Assembly (NCBI GenBank): GCA_002049455.2
Contig: KV918763.1
Coordinates: 620,001-684,000, forward strand
Direction: 5' to 3'
Origin: Porphyra umbilicalis
Lineage: Eukaryota; Rhodophyta; Bangiophyceae; Bangiales; Bangiaceae
DNA length: 64,000 nucleotides
Below are positions 11,538 through 64,000 of the stretch, in pieces. Within the stretch, counting starts at the first letter, position 1. Every line of letters begins with the position of its first letter. Below the pieces are notes generated by a model. That model was not told the DNA's origin. It searched no databases and was given only the letters and a program-made list of their open reading frames with translations. Made by a program: the position numbers and the translations under genes.

Positions 11538-12198
11538 CGATTCCACGCATTAAGGCGCATGAGCGCGACTCATATTGGCGCGCACAGAACTCGGCAATGG
11601 AAGGAGCGTGTGTGCTCCGCATGGACGCATCGAGGAGCCTACCTCATGAGCGTTTTTATGACATATTTTCAGGCGGCTACGACGATAGGCTTGAGAGATA
11701 GACGATTTTCCTTGCATCTCACCGTTGTCTTGAACGCCTTTTTGTGGAATAAATGGCCCGCTGATGACGCTGCAGGCGGTAACTCGACGTGGCTAGGCAA
11801 CAAAATGCGTGTCATCGGTGCTGTGGGGAAGTCTAGACGACATATGTGGCCGTTGGTCACATGGGCGGTGGTGGTGGGGGGCAGGTGATGCTCGTAGCCG
11901 GCCGAGAGAAAGTGCATTTCCACGGGATGCCAGATCGGATCAATACGTGTCTTGCATCAGAAATTGGTCAGAGACAGTTCCGGATCTGCAGAGACGAAGA
12001 AAACGGCGCAATTCTGGAGGGACAGAGAACACCGAGGTGTATCTCAGCGCTACAAGATCCTTTGAGCGCCTAGTTCTTTTTCCTTGAGTACCCATGCCAC
12101 GGAGGCCAGTTTTGTTTACTCCTCATGGTTAAAAACACTCTAGAACAGCAGGGAAAACCCTGTCCTGATGCGCCTAATTGCATGGAAAAGACCTTTAG
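11538..12198 (+). repeat. dispersed direct repeat, copy 1 (internally deleted)
   Basis: Aligns from CGATTCCACGCATTAAGG to the CCTTTAG at 12192-12198 with 18794-19590, the same way round and about 90% alike by eye. Copy 1 lacks about 136 bases present in copy 2 (after the CTAC near 11642), so the reading frame that is open in copy 2 is broken here. The two copies lie on either side of both transposase regions. Confidence 0.7.
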
Positions 12199-18793: not shown

Positions 18794-19590
18794 CGATTCC
18801 ACGCATTAAGGCGCATGAGCGCGACTCATATTGGCACGCACAGAACTCGGCAATGGAACGAGCGTTGGCGCTCCGCATGGACGCATCCTGGAGCCTACAG
18901 CCGTTCTCCCAAGAATCCCGCACTCCAACTGCTGCCAAAGAGTTCCAAATCGGCCTCTACGACCCCGCAGAGGCCGGTTTGGATCACTTTTGGGACAGTT
19001 GCAGTGTGGGATTTTTCGGAGAGCGGCCGTACCTCATCAAATATTTTATGACACACTTTCAGGCGGCTACGATTTTAGGCTTGAGAAATAGACGTTTTTC
19101 CTTGCAACCAACCGCTGTCTTGAACGCCGTTTTGTGGAATAAATGGCCCGCTGATGACGCTGCAGGCGGTAACTCGACGTGGCGAGGCAACAAAATGCGC
19201 GTCATCGGTGCTGCGGGGAGGTCTGGACGACATTTGTCGCCGTTGGTCAACATTGGCGGTGGTTGTGGGGGGCAGGCGATGCTCGTAGCCGACCGAGAGA
19301 CAGTGCATTTCCATGGGATGCCAGATCGAATCAATACGTGTCTTGCATCAGAAACTGTTCAGAGCCAGTTCCGGATCGGCAGAGACGAAGAAAACGGCGC
19401 GATTCTGGAGGGACAGAGAAGCACCGATGTGTATCTCAGCGCTTCAAGATTCTGTGAGCGCCTAGTTCTTTTTCCTTGAGTACCCATACCACGGAGACCA
19501 GTTCTGTTTACTCCTCATGGTTAAAAAAAGTCTAGAACAGCCGGGAAACCCCTTTCCTCATGCACCTAAATGCAAGGAATATACCTTTAG
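18794..19590 (+). repeat. dispersed direct repeat, copy 2 (full length)
   Basis: The longer partner of 11538-12198 (797 versus 661 bases). It keeps an internal block (about 18902-19040) missing from copy 1. It lies 7.26 kb downstream of copy 1 in the same orientation. Confidence 0.7.
18853..19479 (+). CDS. open frame inside repeat copy 2 (unrecognised, ~208 aa)
   Basis: The frame opens at ATG 18853 and ends at TGA 19479. It has balanced amino-acid composition unlike the Arg/Ala-rich shadow frames of this window, with phrases such as FQIGLYDPAEAGLDHFWDSC, YLIKYFMTHFQAATILGLR and VHFHGMPDRINTCLASE. The homologous frame in copy 1 is disrupted by the ~136-base loss. I recognise no domain. It could be part of a transposon protein or a fragment of a captured gene. 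Confidence 0.35.
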   Translation: MERALALRMDASWSLQPFSQESRTPTAAKEFQIGLYDPAEAGLDHFWDSCSVGFFGERPYLIKYFMTHFQAATILGLRNRRFSLQPTAVLNAVLWNKWPADDAAGGNSTWRGNKMRVIGAAGRSGRHLSPLVNIGGGCGGQAMLVADRETVHFHGMPDRINTCLASETVQSQFRIGRDEENGAILEGQRSTDVYLSASRFCERLVLFP

Positions 19591-49176: not shown

Positions 49177-51258
49177 TCAAGCCTTGGCCGACCGCGTGCT
49201 CCGCTTGCTCCGCTTGGTCGTCGGCGCCGGCGCGGCGGCCGCCGCCTCGGCCGCCTCGATGCGCGCGCGCTTGGCGGTGAGGCGGTTGCCCACGGCGGCG
49301 CCCTTGCGGTCGGCGGCGGTCGCCGCCGCGTACGCCTTGCGCTTCTTCTTGGACATCATGGTCATGGCGAGGCGCTTGGCGTCAGCCTCCTCGGCGGCGG
49401 CGCGGGCGGCAATGACCTCCTCGTCCTCCTCCACGTCTTCCTCCTCCTCCTCCTCCTCCTCCTCGTCCTCGTCCTCCTTGCCTTCCTCCGCGCCATCAAC
49501 GTCGCCTGCATCGTTGCCGCCGCCGGCGTCGGCACCGGCAGCGTCGCCTGGCAGCGTAACGACGGCCTCCCCCCCCCTGCCGACGGGTCCGGGCAGGCGC
49601 TCGCCCTCCCCATCGTCGGCGCCAACGCCAAACGCGGCCGCCGCTTCGGCCACGACGCTCTCGTCACCCGCCCGGATGCGGTCGATCATGGCTTGGAAGC
49701 GGGGCACGTAGCCGCCCTCGGACGACGGGTCGACAAACGGGCTCAGGTGCGGGGGGAGCTTCCCGCCGACCGCGTACATGGCCGGCGGCAGCGGCAGGCC
49801 GGCATTGATCGAATCAAACACCCACTGCGGCTGCACGTACTCGGCGCGGAGGAGGCGGCCGCGGATCGACGGGCGGTCCGCCACCCAGTGAGTGACCGTG
49901 GCGAGGAAGGCGTCGCGGGCGGATGTGCCCACGGGCGCCGCCGCCGCCGCCGCCGCCTCGCCACCGCCCTTCTTTTGCATTTTCTTTTGTTTTGGCAGCA
50001 CCACGCCCGGCGCAGAGGCGGCGGCGGCGGCGGTGCCATCACCGTCGCCGTCACCGCCGGGGATGTCGCCTTCGGCAACGACACGCGCCGCGCCGCAGGA
50101 GAGGAGCGCAAACTCGAGTTCGGGCACGGGCGTTTCGCGGCCGAGCACAATGACCGCGCCGGCAAAGATGGTTTCCGACGCTGCCGACCGCTCCCCGGGG
50201 GGAGCCCCGTCGCCAGCCTCGACGGCCATGCCCGTCGGCTCGTCACCGCCGCCGTCCGCGACGGGCGCGCCGGCGCCGGTCGCGGGGGTGGGAGGCGTGG
50301 CGCCGGCGGTGCCGTCCATGGCGTCGCCGTCGCCCGTGTCGCCATTGTTGCCACCTTCCTCCTCCTCGTCATCCTCCTCGGTCGCGGCGGTCGCGGCAAC
50401 AACGTCCGCCATCCGCGTCTGCGCCGCGGCAATGGCGTCTTTGGAGATGGCTGGCGCCGCCGCCGCCGCCGCTGGCGGCCCCGTGACAAACGATGTGACC
50501 AGCCGCCCCGACGCGGTCGCCGACCGGTCGGCGACGGGCGGGTAGGCCCACCCCGTCGATGCGTACAACTTGTAGTTGACCACGTGCAGGACGGCCGTGT
50601 ACAGCTCCATGAATGTGAGCATGACGCGGTAGTCAACGTCTGCCGGCAGCTGCTGGGAGAAGCGGTGCGGCACGCACCAGGTGATGAGCTCCCCGCCAAC
50701 GAGCGCTTGGAAGTAGTAGCCCTTGACGCTCGCAAAGGCCTTGCGGAGCCCCCCCGTGCGGGCGACGTAGTGGGTAAACTCGGCGAGCAGCCGCGACGCG
50801 GTCACCACGACCGTCGGTTGGATGGGCTTGGCCGCCGGCAGGGAGGCAAAGAGGGCCACCAAAGACAGGGCGTCGTCCAAGTCCCGCAGCGCCGCCTCAA
50901 ACGTCGGGTAACGCTCCCGAATAATGTGCTCAAGGGTGTAGCGGGGACGGGAAGCTTTGAGTGCGGCGACCACGTCGTGCTGCTTCTTGGCCGCCGCACG
51001 CCGAATTTTCTTGGCGTGCGCCGACGACGCGCGGAAGGTGGCGAGGAGGGGCTCGTGGGCTAGGAAAGCCACGTCCTTGCGCAGGTAGTAGGTCTTGTTG
51101 GGGCCCTCCACCTTCTTCTTGGGCTCTCGCGGGAAGATGCCCTTGAGGATGCACAGCCGCCGAAAGTCTTTGAGGGACACTTGGAGCTTGCGCAACGCCT
51201 TGGTACGCGTAATGTAGAGGACCGCATTGCCGCGGGTGCCCTTCTTGAGCGGCCTCAT
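49177..51258 (-). CDS. PES1: Pescadillo homologue, ribosome biogenesis factor
   Basis: Nucleolar protein of the PeBoW/Nop7 complex needed for pre-60S rRNA processing. The 693-residue frame is intact. The N-terminal Pescadillo domain (about residues 1-270) shows LKKGTRGNAVLYITRTKALR, LQVSLKDFRRLCILKGIFPR, KTYYLRKDVAFLAHEP, YPTFEAALRDLDDALSLVAL and DVDYRVMLTFMELYTAVLH, all close to the family. A BRCT domain covers about 360-500 (ETIFAGAVIVLG ... VTHWVADRP ... YVQPQWVFDSINAG), with a lineage-specific Gly/Ala/Lys insertion at about 399-446. The C-terminus has an acidic Glu/Asp tract (about 585-612) and basic KKKRKAY and KRSKRSTRS stretches, as in other Pescadillos. ATG 51258 starts directly with the conserved RPLKKG. 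No intron, although the family often has many. Confidence 0.95.
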   Translation of the reverse strand: MRPLKKGTRGNAVLYITRTKALRKLQVSLKDFRRLCILKGIFPREPKKKVEGPNKTYYLRKDVAFLAHEPLLATFRASSAHAKKIRRAAAKKQHDVVAALKASRPRYTLEHIIRERYPTFEAALRDLDDALSLVALFASLPAAKPIQPTVVVTASRLLAEFTHYVARTGGLRKAFASVKGYYFQALVGGELITWCVPHRFSQQLPADVDYRVMLTFMELYTAVLHVVNYKLYASTGWAYPPVADRSATASGRLVTSFVTGPPAAAAAAPAISKDAIAAAQTRMADVVAATAATEEDDEEEEGGNNGDTGDGDAMDGTAGATPPTPATGAGAPVADGGGDEPTGMAVEAGDGAPPGERSAASETIFAGAVIVLGRETPVPELEFALLSCGAARVVAEGDIPGGDGDGDGTAAAAASAPGVVLPKQKKMQKKGGGEAAAAAAAPVGTSARDAFLATVTHWVADRPSIRGRLLRAEYVQPQWVFDSINAGLPLPPAMYAVGGKLPPHLSPFVDPSSEGGYVPRFQAMIDRIRAGDESVVAEAAAAFGVGADDGEGERLPGPVGRGGEAVVTLPGDAAGADAGGGNDAGDVDGAEEGKEDEDEEEEEEEEEDVEEDEEVIAARAAAEEADAKRLAMTMMSKKKRKAYAAATAADRKGAAVGNRLTAKRARIEAAEAAAAAPAPTTKRSKRSTRSAKA

Positions 51259-52651
51259 GTCGGCGGCGGTGGGGGGGGGAGCGCGCACGCCGTGGCCGCG
51301 AGACCAGCGGGACGGGACCAGAGTCAGAAGTCGACGACGCGGTCGTCGGGTTGGGAGAGCAGAGAGCACTCCCTAGACCAGGAGCGGGGCTAGGACGACT
51401 GCCAATTCTGGAGAAGCGCCCAGACGCCGACGTACAGTGGGGCACCCGGTGGGTCGGGTCGACGACGCGGCACCGATGGCTTTAGCACAGACGGCTCTCC
51501 GGCGGTGAAACGGGCTGTTGCCGTCGTCGACTCATTGCGTTGGTTTTTGTGCCACAAATACACTTGGGCAAGGGACATTACTTCGATAGTATTTGTATTG
51601 CACATAGCGGTCGAAGCGATCGTCACATAACGTCGGAGTTTAAATATGTTTAGGTATGCTATATATCAAGATGGTTCATAAACGACATTCCGTGTCAATA
51701 TGATTCGACCAACTCGACTTGACTTTTTAGGATTGGAGAGTCCGGAGACACAGCATGATTCTTGACGTGACCCATCAGGATTTCTATCGAGTGATCTACT
51801 GCTCCGAGCGGGTTCGGTGTTTCTCGAAGCTGCGCGGATGGCCGGGCCACACGGCTGGCGACGCGTGGTGGCGAGTGTGGGGCCAGGACCGACCGGCTGG
51901 CGAGCAGGCCCCGCTTCTTCTCAAGACGCCTGATTGTGACCGTGTGCTCAAAGCGCAACGGCTGTGCCAGCGGGGACAGAGTGCACACTAGCCTCCGAGA
52001 GTGGGGGCTGCGGTGGCTGACTCTGTCTGTGCGTTTGCCTCGTCCGGGTGGGCGGCTCCCGTCGCTCGTCACCCGTCGCATCGCCGGGGCCTGGCCTCAA
52101 GAGGGCGGGCCGCAACCCACGGTGACCGGTCGAGCATTTCCGCGTCGGCGGGTGAGGCCCGCCCGAAGAAGCGTGGGGCTGAAGAGAGGCTGGACTTTCG
52201 GCTGCCCAGGAGATCTTTCAGGCGGCGGTGCTTGTGGCCCCGACTCGATGCTCTGGTGTTCTGGACCAATAGGAAGCTGCAGGTCAGTGTTTGTGGCTAT
52301 TGCGGGCTGGAAAGCACCACTCGTCGACCCAATCAAAACAGTTGCCCATCGTCCTTTTCTTCGCGCTGTCCTTTTCTCCAACCCACCGCAGCAGCATCGG
52401 GAACACCATTGCCGTAGGATGTCTGCCCTTAGAGGGCTCTCCGGCCAGAAAACGATACGGGGCGAATCGTCGCCGCAAACTGTCTGTCAACACATGCTTT
52501 GACTATGCTGCGCGTTCAACCTGCACCGACACAAGGGCATGATCCCTCAGGAAGATCCCGATGCCGTGGGGTGGGTCACACCTGCAACCAGTGGGCGGGA
52601 AGAGCCCGTGGCAGGGCCAGGCCACCCGGGCCAACCCACCCTACTGTTATT
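51259..52651. other. intergenic, no supported gene
   Basis: The first 100 bases are the Pescadillo leader and promoter. The rest is lower-GC sequence with short overlapping frames and no recognised domain. Confidence 0.35.
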
Positions 52652-54723: not shown

Positions 54724-54951
54724 ATGTGCTTCCGCATTCAGGAAACCTACGCTTGCGGCTGTGTGATGCTGAGCGAAGTCATCTGGTGCGACTACGCGCG
54801 GTCCATCGGCCGGCAGTGCGCGAATGTGGCGATTCAGGGAGGCCCAGGCTCCGTCCACACCTATAAATGCCCCGCGTGCGGGGGGAAACGGCAAGCTGAC
54901 AATGATGAGAGCGGCGCGGAGGAGTCCGATGACGACGACGAAGAAGAATAA
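54724..54951 (+). CDS. small six-cysteine, acidic-tail protein, member 1
   Basis: 75-residue protein starting MCFRIQETYACGC in an excellent context (GCCGCCATGT). Cys pattern C-x-C-x8-C-x9-C-x16-C-x2-C with a WCDYAR block around the third Cys and a CPACGGK end, followed by an acidic tail (ESDDDDEEE) to the stop. The CxC and CxxC pairs suggest one or two structural zinc ions. The spacing recurs in the window-edge gene at 63646-63999, which makes both very likely real. Small fungal proteins that begin MCR and carry a YxCGH and C...C layout look loosely similar from memory, but I cannot confirm homology. Function unknown. It is in the same strand as the isomerase gene 0.8 kb downstream. Confidence 0.75.
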   Translation: MCFRIQETYACGCVMLSEVIWCDYARSIGRQCANVAIQGGPGSVHTYKCPACGGKRQADNDESGAEESDDDDEEE

Positions 54952-55645
54952 GGGATCGGTGCTTGCCAGACTGGGCCGCGGCGGCTGCCGGGCGCGTCGT
55001 CGGCAGACGCTTCCCCCGCCAAACCGGTGGGCTGCTCTCCGTCGCTGGGCACCGCACCGCGAAGCTCTCTTTTGCGCGCATCGGTCGCGCTTGCTTGTGG
55101 CGACGGCGTTGGTGAATCCACGCTGTCGATAAGGCGTCGGCAACTGGAAGTGGACCACCAAGACGAGACCGACGTGGCTGAGCCGTGGACTGCACCCGAA
55201 AGGGGCGGCGTGGTGCGTCGCCTTCTTGGTGATGTCGATACAGGTGTGCAAGTGACGGCGGCTACCGCGAGGGGGTGCTCGTGGACATCTTTTTGTTTCC
55301 TACTTTACTTTGTTCTTTTGCCTTCCATTCGAGTAGGGAACGTCGGGGATAGTTTTTTTTTATGTACAGTGGGCAGCCCGGGGAGGGCGGGGGCGCGGAT
55401 GGCGGCGGTGGCTGTGGCTGCCACCGCAGGTCCGCTGCAGCTGGTGGGGATGTTCTGATAAATTGTCGCCGATAGCAAATCGGTCCCCTTCGAGCCTCGG
55501 ACGGTGGCGGATCACCATGTGACTGGCGTCGCCGCTGTGCTCACGCCGCCATCAGCTTCACCGTCTCTGTCCCATGATGTACCGGCGGGTGGGCCTCTGC
55601 TTCCTTCCCCCATTCTCCTTGACGCCACCTCGTCCGGTTCAGGCC
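54952..55645. other. 3' region of the six-Cys gene and promoter of isomerase copy A
   Basis: No gene recognised. 55284-55365 is T-rich and could hold 3'-end signals. Confidence 0.4.
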
Positions 55646-56481
55646 GCCCTCGTCCGACACAGGGGAAGCCCCCTCACCGCCCCCCCCCCCCCCGCCGCTC
55701 ACTCCCGCTGCCGACGCCATTGTTCCCCATGTGCGTTGGCGGTCTCCCCCCCCCCGCCAGGCGCTCCCCCCCCCCCCCCCTGCACGCCGTCAAAATCTGC
55801 GGCGTCACCTCCCCCGCCGACGCGTCTGCCGCCGTCGCCGCTGCGACGGCCGCCCTCCCCCCCGGCGTGGAGCTCCTCATCGGCATGATTGCCCACCCGC
55901 CGTCGCCGCGGCACGTCGAGGCGGCGGCCGCGGCGGCGATTGCCGGCGTGGCGCGGGCGGGCGGCGCCACGCCCGTGGTCGTGTTTGTGCGGCAAACGGC
56001 GGCCGAGATGGGCGCCTACCTCCACGCTGCGGGCGTGGACGTGGCGCAACTGCACGGGCCGGCGGCAGCGGCGGCGCGGGGGGGGCTCCCACCCGCCGTG
56101 CGCGTCATGCGCGTCGTGCACGTGGCGGCGGATGGGAGCTACTCGGCGCCGCCGCCGGCGCCAGCCGAGGGTGGTGGGGCCGACGGCGACTGGTGGACGG
56201 TGTACGACGCGGGGTCGGGTGGGGGGGGGTGGCGTTTGACTGGTCGGCGTTTGTGCCGCCGCCGGCGGGGAGGCGGTGGTTGCTGGCGGGGGGACTCCAT
56301 GCGGGCAACGTGGGTGGGGCGCTGGACGTTGTTTCGCCGGGGGGGTGGACGTGAGCTCGGGCGTGTGTGGGGCGGACGGGGTGGCCAAGGACGCGGGGCG
56401 AGTGGCGGCGTTTTTGGAGGCGGTGGCCGCCGCGCGTGCCAAGCGGGTGGGGAGGCGTGGCGACACGGCGCCTGTGTGAGC
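55646..56481 (+). repeat. arm A of a ~0.84-kb inverted duplication
   Basis: Near-identical, in reverse orientation, to 62077-62913. The shared segment begins about 80 bases before the isomerase ATG and stops within 2-5 bases after the stop codon, so the copy unit is almost exactly the gene. Confidence 0.9.
55729..56479 (+). CDS. phosphoribosylanthranilate isomerase, copy A
   Basis: Third step of tryptophan synthesis from anthranilate: converts phosphoribosylanthranilate to the carboxyphenylamino-deoxyribulose phosphate (TrpF/TRP1), a TIM-barrel enzyme, plastidial in algae and plants. Motifs: VKICGVTSPADA with the catalytic Cys, AELLIG-like strand ELLIGMIA, VVVFVRQTAAE, DVAQLHG, AFDWSAF with the catalytic Asp, WLLAGGLHAGNVGGAL, GVDVSSGVCGADGVAKDAGR (phosphate loop). 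A frame change at G9 (56221-56229) is shared with copy B. Near 56336-56342 this copy alone lacks one C, so it reads VSPGGWT then stop, where copy B continues correctly. Copy A may therefore be inactive. ATG 55729 gives a short leader. An Arg/Ser/Pro-rich frame from ATG 55574, joined by a C-run shift, could encode a transit peptide. Confidence 0.85.
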
Positions 56482-56708
56482 GGCATGCAATTGGATGGGG
56501 AGCGTCTGTGGGCGGGACGTTTGGTCGGCGCCGCCTCTTTTTTGCCCTCCGTTGTTTTTCGTAGACCGCGTAGGCCGCAGCGGCAAGCGCGGTGTACAGC
56601 GGGGTTGCCACCGTCCCCCTCTGAACGAACAGAAAATAGGACGCCGCCCACCTCGTGCCGTCCAAGCCCCCTCTGGCGGGCGACACGCCGCCACCCCCAC
56701 CTGCACCC
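56482..56708. other. gap between converging isomerase copy A and SR-like genes
   Basis: Short shared 3' region. No gene seen. Confidence 0.4.
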
Positions 56709-60941: not shown

Positions 60942-62076
60942 CACCGTCGTGGGGGGGTCATACCGCGCCGCGGGGCGGCGGGCACGCGCCGGCGGACACC
61001 TGCAAGACCCGGGGGCGGGGGCGCGCGCCGGGGCGACGGCGCGCGGTGGGAGCGCTGGGGCTCAATAGGGGATGGCGAGGGGAAAAAGCGAGTGGGGGAA
61101 GGACGGTTTGGGCAGAGATGGGCGATGGGACAGTAGGGGCAAGGGGGAGGGGGGGGGGGCAAAACGGGCCACGCGGCCGCGTCGCGCCAGCCGACGCAAC
61201 GGGCGCCGGCGAGGACGGCAAGACGCGTCGGCGCGAAGCCGCCGCGAACGAGGGGGACAAAAACGGCCGTGGCGGGGCGGTCGGCCCGCACGAGCCCGTA
61301 AGTTCAACCCCTTGGCTCATCGCGGGAGCAAAGTCGGCCACCTCGTGCGAATGCGGCGGAAATTCCTCTTGGACCTTGGAATGAAGTCCGCCAGCATGGC
61401 ACCTCCGGACCTCCTTCCGAAGCACGCCTCCTCTCGGCTGTATCGATTCCCCGCGTCTCTCTTTCCCAAGAGAGCAGACCGTGGGCCGACCAGGCTCACC
61501 GTCTTACCCGCAGAGGCCCGCGCCTACGGCCTCGGCTGCGACGCCAATGGGCCAAGTCTATCAAACCAAACAGCACCAGGTGCCGGCATGTAACTAGGAG
61601 GCAGCACAGCAGCCGAGCTGATGCTGATAGCAATGTGACGAGCTCCCTTGGACCGTGCCGTCCGACATTCAGTTTCCGTCGCAGCGGTGGTCCCCAGCAT
61701 GACGGTGGAGGAGAGGGTGAAAGCGTGGGTGGTCGAAATGGCATTGTACTTTCCGCTCCCGGTCCCGCTCCTCATCCACCTCTCCCGACTGCTCCCATCC
61801 CACTTGCTCCAGCTCGCGTTCGTCGCCGCCTCGCCGCCAGTGGTGGGCCATCGAGGCCGTGGTCCTCCGCCAACTGGCCATACAGCTGCAAACGGCAATC
61901 ACCATTGCACTGTCAATGGACGTCTGGCGTAACACACACTGGCACAGCACAGCTACGCCATCCCTACAGACGCAAACAACCATCAAGAACAAGCGGCAGG
62001 GAAACATAAACACAGCGCCGACGCCGACGCCGACACAGACGCTGGCCCGACCACACACGTCCCCACCACAGTGACA
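60942..62076. other. promoter region of the SR-like gene and downstream flank of isomerase copy B
   Basis: Mixed composition. Frames on both strands (for example plus 61072-61593) show no domain. No gene supported. Confidence 0.35.
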
Positions 62077-62913
62077 GCTCATACGGGCGCCGTGTCGCCA
62101 CGCCTCCCCACCCGCTTGGCACGCGCGGCGGCCACCGCCTCCAAAAACGCCGCCACTCGCCCCGCGTCCTTGGCCACCCCGTCCGCCCCACACACGCCCG
62201 AGCTCACGTCCACCCCCCCGGGCGAAACAACGTCCAGCGCCCCACCCACGTTGCCCGCATGGAGTCCCCCCGCCAGCAACCACCGCCTCCCCGCCGGCGG
62301 CGGCACAAACGCCGACCAGTCAAACGCCACCCCCCCCCACCCGACCCCGCGTCGTACACCGTCCACCAGTCGCCGTCGGCCCCACCACCCTCGGCTGGCG
62401 CCGGCGGCGGCGCCGAGTAGCTCCCATCCGCCGCCACGTGCACGACGCGCATGACGCGCACGGCGGGTGGGAGCCCCCCCCGCGCCGCCGCTGCCGCCGG
62501 CCCGTGCAGTTGCGCCACGTCCACGCCCGCAGCGTGGAGGTAGGCGCCCATCTCGGCCGCCGTTTGCCGCACAAACACGACCACGGGCGTGGCGCCGCCC
62601 GCCCGCGCCACGCCGGCAATCGCCGCCGCGGCCGCCGCCTCGACGTGCCGCGGCGACGGCGGGTGGGCAATCATGCCGATGAGGAGCTCCACGCCGGGGG
62701 GGAGGGCGGCCGTCGCAGCGGCGACGGCGGCAGACGCGTCGGCGGGGGAGGTGACGCCGCAGATTTTGACGGCGTGCAGGGGGGGGGGGGGGGAGCGCCT
62801 GGCGGGGGGGGGGAGACCGCCAACGCACATGGGGAACAATGGCGTCGGCAGCGGGAGTGGGCGGTGCGGGGGAGAGGAGCGGTGAGGGGGCTTGCCCGGT
62901 GTCGGACAAGGGC
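62077..62913 (-). repeat. arm B of the ~0.84-kb inverted duplication
   Basis: Reverse-complement partner of 55646-56481. The lengths differ by one base. Arms A and B are separated by 5.6 kb containing the SR-like gene. Confidence 0.9.
62079..62830 (-). CDS. phosphoribosylanthranilate isomerase, copy B
   Basis: Second copy of the TrpF/TRP1-type enzyme, virtually identical to copy A. Here the C-terminal half (AFDWSAFVPPPAG through GVDVSSGVCGADGVAKDAGR to DTAPV) is one uninterrupted frame, because three C precede the G7 run near 62213-62222. The frame change at the nine-C run 62330-62338 (same place as in copy A) remains; one extra base there would make the gene continuous. ATG 62830 matches the copy A start. 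An alternative longer leader from ATG 62991 is Arg/Ala/Pro-rich like a transit peptide but needs a C-run shift. Of the two, this is the better candidate for the working enzyme. Confidence 0.85.
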
Positions 62914-63645
62914 AGTCCGGGCGCGAACAGCCGCGGGCAAGGGGGGTGGGGCGCGGAAGCCGAGGCACTCAGCGTCCGGCCGGCCGACCATGGCAGGCAG
63001 CTCCGGTTATTTGGTGGCGTGAGGCACAAGGTTTGGTGCAGGCGCAGGCGTTGCCGGTCCCGCTCTGCAGACGGTGGACGGTGCGCGGAGTGTTCGCTCG
63101 CGGGGTCGAGGGAGGCTGTCATCATAGCAAGCCGCGTACGGGTATCAAGTGGATCGGACGCATCCAATTTGGGCGCGCCGCGTTTCGCTGTTTCAAAAAA
63201 AACAATGCCCATTGAAATTTGCTACCGCGCACCGTCGCTAGAGAGAAGGACGAGCCCCTGTCACAGACGCCGTCATCCGCGCTCCCACCCTCCACTGCCG
63301 CCATGCTATCGCTACCGTCTCGCAAAGCACACACGAGCAACACAAACAGGATATCGTGGAAGCAGATAGAAAAGAAAACAATACGACAAGGGGAACCCGC
63401 AGGACAAGACCACCGCCCGCGCTGTTGTAGATGCTCACGGATACTCTTGCTGGCCGTCCACGTCGCGACGGACATCGGTCAGCGGCGGCGGCGGGAGCCA
63501 CCGCCGGCGCCACCGACGAGCTCCACCACTACATGCGGCGGCATCACACGCCTTATGCCAAGCGACTAGAAGCAGGTAGTCCGGGTGGCAAAGGTGGCGC
63601 CGACGCGCCAGACGCGACGGCCGCCGCAACTAGCGCGTGCCTCCC
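62914..63645. other. upstream flank of isomerase copy B, no gene
   Basis: No supported gene. Includes the likely leader and promoter of copy B and the 3' side of the six-Cys gene at the window end. Confidence 0.35.
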
Positions 63646-63717
63646 TTAATTGTCGTCGTCGTCCTTGTTCTCGTCGTCTTCGTCGTCCTGGTTGTCGTCG
63701 TCATCGTCCTCCTGGTT

Positions 63718-63780
<63 letters not shown>

Positions 63781-63999
63781 CTGGTTCTCGTTCTGGTCGT
63801 CGTTCTGGACTTCTTCCTCGCCGTCGATCTTGTCCTTGTCCACATTCGCGGCTTCTGCTGCTTGTTTTCTGAGGCAATGGTTGCACGTTCGGCTCAACAC
63901 ATCTCCTTGGACCGTCTCAATATCCTTGCAGGGTCTGAGAGTCGCCCGTGCGTTGTCACACCAGAAGGGGGAAGGGATCAACTCGCAGCCGCAGCACGC
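63646..63999 (-). CDS. small six-cysteine, acidic-tail protein, member 2 (5' end outside window)
   Basis: The frame is open to the window edge, so the N-terminus is missing. It reads ACCGCELIPSPFWCDNAR, then RPCKDIE and TCNHCLRK, giving C-x-C-x8-C-x9-C-x14-C-x2-C. This is the same spacing as the protein at 54724-54951, with the same W-C-D-x-A-R block around the third Cys. A long acidic tail follows, including 21 consecutive Asp encoded by a GAC repeat (63718-63780), and ends DDDDN at TAA 63646. The two proteins share only the Cys framework and a few residues, so they are diverged paralogues rather than a recent copy. Probably zinc-binding; function unknown. Confidence 0.7.
63718..63780. repeat. 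(GTC)21 trinucleotide repeat, coding for poly-Asp on the minus strand
   Basis: Uninterrupted 63-base run within the acidic tail of the six-Cys protein. Likely length-polymorphic. Confidence 0.95.
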
Positions 64000-64000
64000 G

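Follow-up and report, generated by a model that had tools for sequence, protein, structure and literature searches.

A possible small family of cysteine-framework proteins with acidic tails beside an inverted TrpF duplication in Porphyra umbilicalis

Two short open reading frames (ORFs) in a 64,000-nucleotide stretch of Porphyra umbilicalis DNA (here called the window, C3:620001-684000) share a framework of seven cysteines that is followed by an acidic tail, and a probable third relative lies on another contig of the same genome. We tentatively read them as real ORF genes of a small paralogous family that arose by duplication, whose products would join an intracellular zinc module to an acidic tail holding basic partners; as a whole this reading is plausible, if somewhat short of probable. 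The features in the window that bear on it are as follows.

54724..54951, plus strand: member 1, a complete ORF of 75 amino acids (from translation; similarity to member 2 is confined to this frame)
54724..54879, plus strand: cysteine module of member 1, C2-x8-C11-x-C13-x8-C22-x9-C32-x16-C49-x2-C52 (computed spacing)
54898..54948, plus strand: acidic tail of member 1, residues 59-75, DNDESGAEESDDDDEEE (from translation)
55593..56533, plus strand: TrpF/PRAI-like copy 1, lying downstream of member 1 (Pfam match to PRAI, E 2e-6)
62025..62966, minus strand: TrpF/PRAI-like copy 2, lying downstream of member 2 (Pfam match to PRAI, E 2.7e-7)
63646..64000, minus strand: the part of member 2 that lies inside the window (from the ORF and homology to member 1)

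Cysteine framework of members 1 and 2

Member 1 (C3:674724-674951 in contig numbering) is open from ATG to TAA and, just as the original prediction had described it, contains the pattern C-x-C-x8-C-x9-C-x16-C-x2-C, a WCDYAR block and an acidic end. Its cysteines stand at positions 2, 11, 13, 22, 32, 49 and 52 (n = 7), a CPACGG stretch is present, and the 17 C-terminal residues that form the tail are mainly acidic. G+C at codon positions 1, 2 and 3 was 0.61, 0.47 and 0.72 respectively, which agrees with a coding frame and proves nothing. As for its surroundings, the upstream neighbour of member 1 (49177-51369, minus strand) encodes a protein with a Pescadillo N-terminal domain (E 4e-99), a protein of ribosome maturation; elsewhere in the window, 11640-12198 and 19030-19590 form a direct repeat of ~560 bases at 90% identity.

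Member 2 has its start codon beyond the window: when complete it spans 63646-64026 in window numbering (C3:683646-684026, minus strand) and encodes 126 amino acids, with an MC start and a long Asp-rich tail. Eight cysteines (positions 2, 11, 12, 14, 23, 33, 48 and 51) are present, i.e., one more than in member 1, the additional one being at position 11 ahead of CGC. As both proteins open with M-C, the framework comprises seven cysteines, the seventh of which had been overlooked when the pair was first described. The spacing in the two proteins had then been called identical: four of the five gaps are indeed equal, but the last one, ahead of the CxxC pair, is 14 residues in member 2 (C-x-C-x8-C-x9-C-x14-C-x2-C) and 16 in member 1.

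The following comparisons indicate that the second ORF is truly related to member 1: i) When the two loci were compared in every pair of frames, the predicted frames scored 83, while the 35 other frame pairs scored at most 43; ii) A search of the genome (an 83.8 Mb assembly of 665 contigs) with residues 1-66 of member 2 recovered member 1 at E 7.3e-4, and the reverse search with member 1 recovered member 2 at E 0.022; iii) None of 2000 shuffles of the member 2 core matched the score of the pair, whether the cysteines were left free or fixed; iv) In simulated sequence of similar composition (4.2 Mb), a loosened pattern that included the MC start had no match. When the MC start is dropped, the six-cysteine core is no longer unique: it has two additional matches near 58.06 kb; these fall in a Cys/Arg-rich low-complexity frame with no MC start and were rejected.

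All seven cysteines of member 1 are retained in member 2, as compared with 11 of the 43 remaining positions in the alignment (p 3e-4 by Fisher test, an optimistic value as alignment scoring itself favours cysteines). Over 50 codons, identity between the two members at codon positions 1, 2 and 3 was 0.48, 0.52 and 0.54, so that silent changes are not in excess; this suggests either that selection outside the cysteines is weak or that the pair is saturated. The view that the framework is real, has been kept and falls in no named family was supported by the 7 of 7 cysteines retained and by profile searches of Pfam, NCBIfam and PHROGs, none of which gave an assignment (the sole PHROGs match, at E 0.08, was to a family of unknown nature).

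A probable third member and searches beyond the genome

The candidate member 3 is encoded on the minus strand of contig C8 (C8:227204-227647) and has 147 residues. It shows an MC start, then CSC, YCD and C placed as in its relatives, followed by CFVH and an extended acidic tail rich in Glu and Lys, and its six cysteines are separated by gaps of 8, 1, 8, 9 and 15 residues. The element C-D-x-A plus one Arg is common to all three members. With natural queries member 3 was found at E 0.52 (member 1 as query) and 0.27, and the E values of 0.003 and 6e-4 obtained with queries built from the three members are partly circular; a genome search with member 2 did not recover member 3, nor did one with member 3 recover member 2. 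Among shuffles that kept the cysteines, the score of member 3 was matched by 1 of 2000 against member 1 and by 32 of 2000 against member 2. Given that it shares the start, the four leading gaps and an acidic tail, member 3 probably belongs to the family, with marginal E values, and we count two sure members and one probable member in the family. Three other genome matches, C441, C455 and C96, carry one stop each; translated around the stops they showed no framework by eye and were rejected.

In our reading, which goes by spacing alone, the CFVH of member 3 stands in for CxxC; the local alignment with member 1 ends before CFVH, and MAFFT positions CFVH elsewhere. In the acidic tail of member 3 (L003:1264-1707, minus strand, contig C8), a 12-residue unit, DEEEEKKEETE plus Ser/Gly, is repeated four times in tandem. 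Asp and Glu together account for 15 of 75 residues in member 1, 52 of 126 in member 2 and 64 of 147 in member 3, counted over the whole proteins. The tails of the members are encoded by differing codon runs; thus acidity rather than sequence seems to be conserved in them.

Outside this genome, tblastn with the member 1 core returned 11 plasmid records (best E 4) and six phage records (best E 0.7), all at chance level. Pattern scans of IMG/VR gave 15 and 17 stretches, and one pattern run on the GTDB species genomes gave 16, with no stretch confirmed in either collection; these scans demand exact matches to short degenerate peptides, so that distant relatives can escape them, and in the alignment behind the patterns the third row is wrongly placed at its end. 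Absence from prokaryotic and viral collections is expected for a eukaryotic gene.

The TrpF inverted duplication and the origin of the pair

Members 1 and 2 had been put forward as two independent genes. This part of the prediction is probably wrong: each sits upstream of one arm of a single inverted duplication of TrpF (PRAI, an enzyme of tryptophan synthesis). The duplication joins both TrpF arms at 94.5% over 946 columns, and the distance from small gene to downstream arm is ~640 bases for member 1 and ~680 bases for member 2, both small genes being oriented alike with respect to TrpF. By eye, ~770 bases of the arm alignment are identical save one single-base gap, and this core is flanked on either side by short edges that are clearly diverged yet alignable. 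DNA similarity was weak both between the TrpF arms and the small genes (a 26-base match, reached by 0 of 300 crude shuffles) and upstream of the small genes (a 57-base match, reached by 1 of 300 crude shuffles). A 147-residue TrpF piece compared with the genome had two other matches, both at E 0.008.

In both arms the Pfam PRAI match is limited to profile positions 1-104 of 193. The frames of the two TrpF copies seem to be broken at the same G run (about 56220 and 62340), as judged by eye from the ORFs and the arm alignment against known TrpF motifs; a sequencing error in the G run would account for the break, as would an intron or a defect common to both copies.

Most likely, inverted duplication of a unit made of the small gene and TrpF gave rise to members 1 and 2, which are probably old paralogs. 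After the duplication the small proteins would have diverged to ~35% identity while TrpF stayed alike, either via gene conversion or through an effect of assembly: diverged edges around an identical core are the expected outcome of gene conversion between old duplicates, and a misassembled copy could produce them as well. That two related genes landed beside two TrpF copies by chance is less likely.

Proposed function, rival explanations and known families

In the reading that we favour, the short ORF genes are genuine and apparently single-exon. Each protein would consist of a cysteine module of ~50 residues that starts at the N-terminus (MC, CxC, CD, C, CxxC) and of an acidic tail of variable length. 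We infer that the module binds zinc, folding around one or two ions with ligands from the CxC and the C-terminal CxxC. The protein would remain inside the cell, where the tail, most likely disordered, may bind basic partners (e.g., histones, ribosomal or RNA-binding proteins), and the whole may serve as a small acidic adaptor or chaperone. Four observations suggest that the protein binds metal within the cell: i) the ordered cysteines begin at residue 2; ii) no clear leader peptide was seen by eye in the three N-termini (member 2 opens with a mildly hydrophobic stretch); iii) CPACGG is present; iv) member 3 may have exchanged a Cys for His, a change easier to reconcile with a metal ligand than with a disulfide. 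An AlphaFold2 model, based on an alignment of two rows with the second missing its start, had a mean pLDDT of 46.9 and a pTM of 0.24 and was unusable for a metal site.

Other natures of the pair were weighed against the same evidence. We consider it very unlikely that the pair consists of decaying duplicates, or of spurious ORFs, with leftover cysteines: the codon-position identities of the pair appear neutral, a trinucleotide repeat encodes the Asp run of member 2, and open frames of 76 codons are not rare in G+C-rich DNA, many being found in the window, but both frames are open, their similarity is in-frame only, every framework cysteine of member 1 is kept, and the probable third relative shares the layout. 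An intracellular metal buffer or redox protein, with loose metal binding or thiol/disulfide cycling and weak additional metal sites in the tail, would suit proteins that each have six to eight cysteines, confined to the first ~52 residues, and an Asp/Glu tail. Against it, the cysteine spacing is almost fixed and spread, whereas metallothioneins carry dense CxC runs, and C-D-x-A with one Arg is also kept in all three members; we regard it as quite improbable.

Small size, a high cysteine content and the even cysteine counts of member 2 (eight) and member 3 (six) would fit a secreted, disulfide-rich EGF-type or defence peptide, and excerpts of the literature use the string CXCX8C for EGF-type proteins. 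A secreted peptide is nevertheless given a very slim probability: a clear leader is absent by eye, the first Cys is residue 2, the count in member 1 is odd (seven), and no such family was matched in Pfam at E up to 10. Short hypothetical proteins of fungi have an MC start, CGC or CGH, single cysteines at intervals and a CxxC at the end, and the members might belong to a broad unnamed group with these fungal MC...CGC/CGH...CxxC proteins, through common descent or transfer. Acidic tails are not known to be typical of the fungal proteins; membership in such a group is unlikely. A wider claim, namely an undescribed zinc module of seven ordered Cys (MC, CxC, CD, C and CxxC, the last perhaps also as CxxH) with acidic tails of variable length that evolves fast except at its ligands and is perhaps shared by red algae and fungi through a common ancestor or transfer, is decidedly unlikely.

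Currently this is a small unnamed family known from one genome, which is a modest result, as unnamed short cysteine proteins are frequent among eukaryotes, and nothing in it shows a new mechanism. Should it prove real in further red algae or fungi, one more named family would emerge from the many short, fast-evolving cysteine proteins annotated as hypothetical, and it would offer a simple test case of proteins that conserve little besides their presumed metal ligands.

Among solved structures (PDB) no convincing relative was found. The lectin CEL-III matched at E 0.045 and 0.004 and was rejected, no single stretch passing and the score being a sum of weak repeats; all other PDB matches had E of at least 0.7. 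A literature search, which was not exhaustive, found no named family of this kind. In NCBIfam, residues 46-69 of member 1, which cover the CxxC and the first part of the tail, gave a weak alignment to the start of the profile NF047912 (ECs_2282 family putative zinc-binding protein), and this candidate was rejected at 13.4 bits against a cut-off of 37.

NOA36/ZNF330 is described, in excerpts of the literature, as a cysteine-rich nucleolar zinc-finger protein. The acidic stretch of its Pfam profile (PF06524) matches the tail of member 2: the complete member 2 scored 21.9 bits against a cut-off of 32.6, residues 1-66 alone gave no match, and the Pfam search of member 1 gave none either. Identity with NOA36 was rejected because the match of member 2 depends on the acidic tail.

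The C-terminal metal-binding domain of SecA has the form CXCX8C(H/C) and binds a metal thought to be zinc, according to excerpts of one report (PMC6620043). Its gaps of 1 and 8 (CXCX8C) are found in all three members of the family, but the residue that immediately follows the third Cys is His or Cys in SecA and Asp in all three members. The SecA profile was absent among the Pfam matches at E up to 10. Thus, with the fourth ligand missing and no Pfam match, the family is not a member of the SecA metal-binding domain and stands outside it as partly similar.
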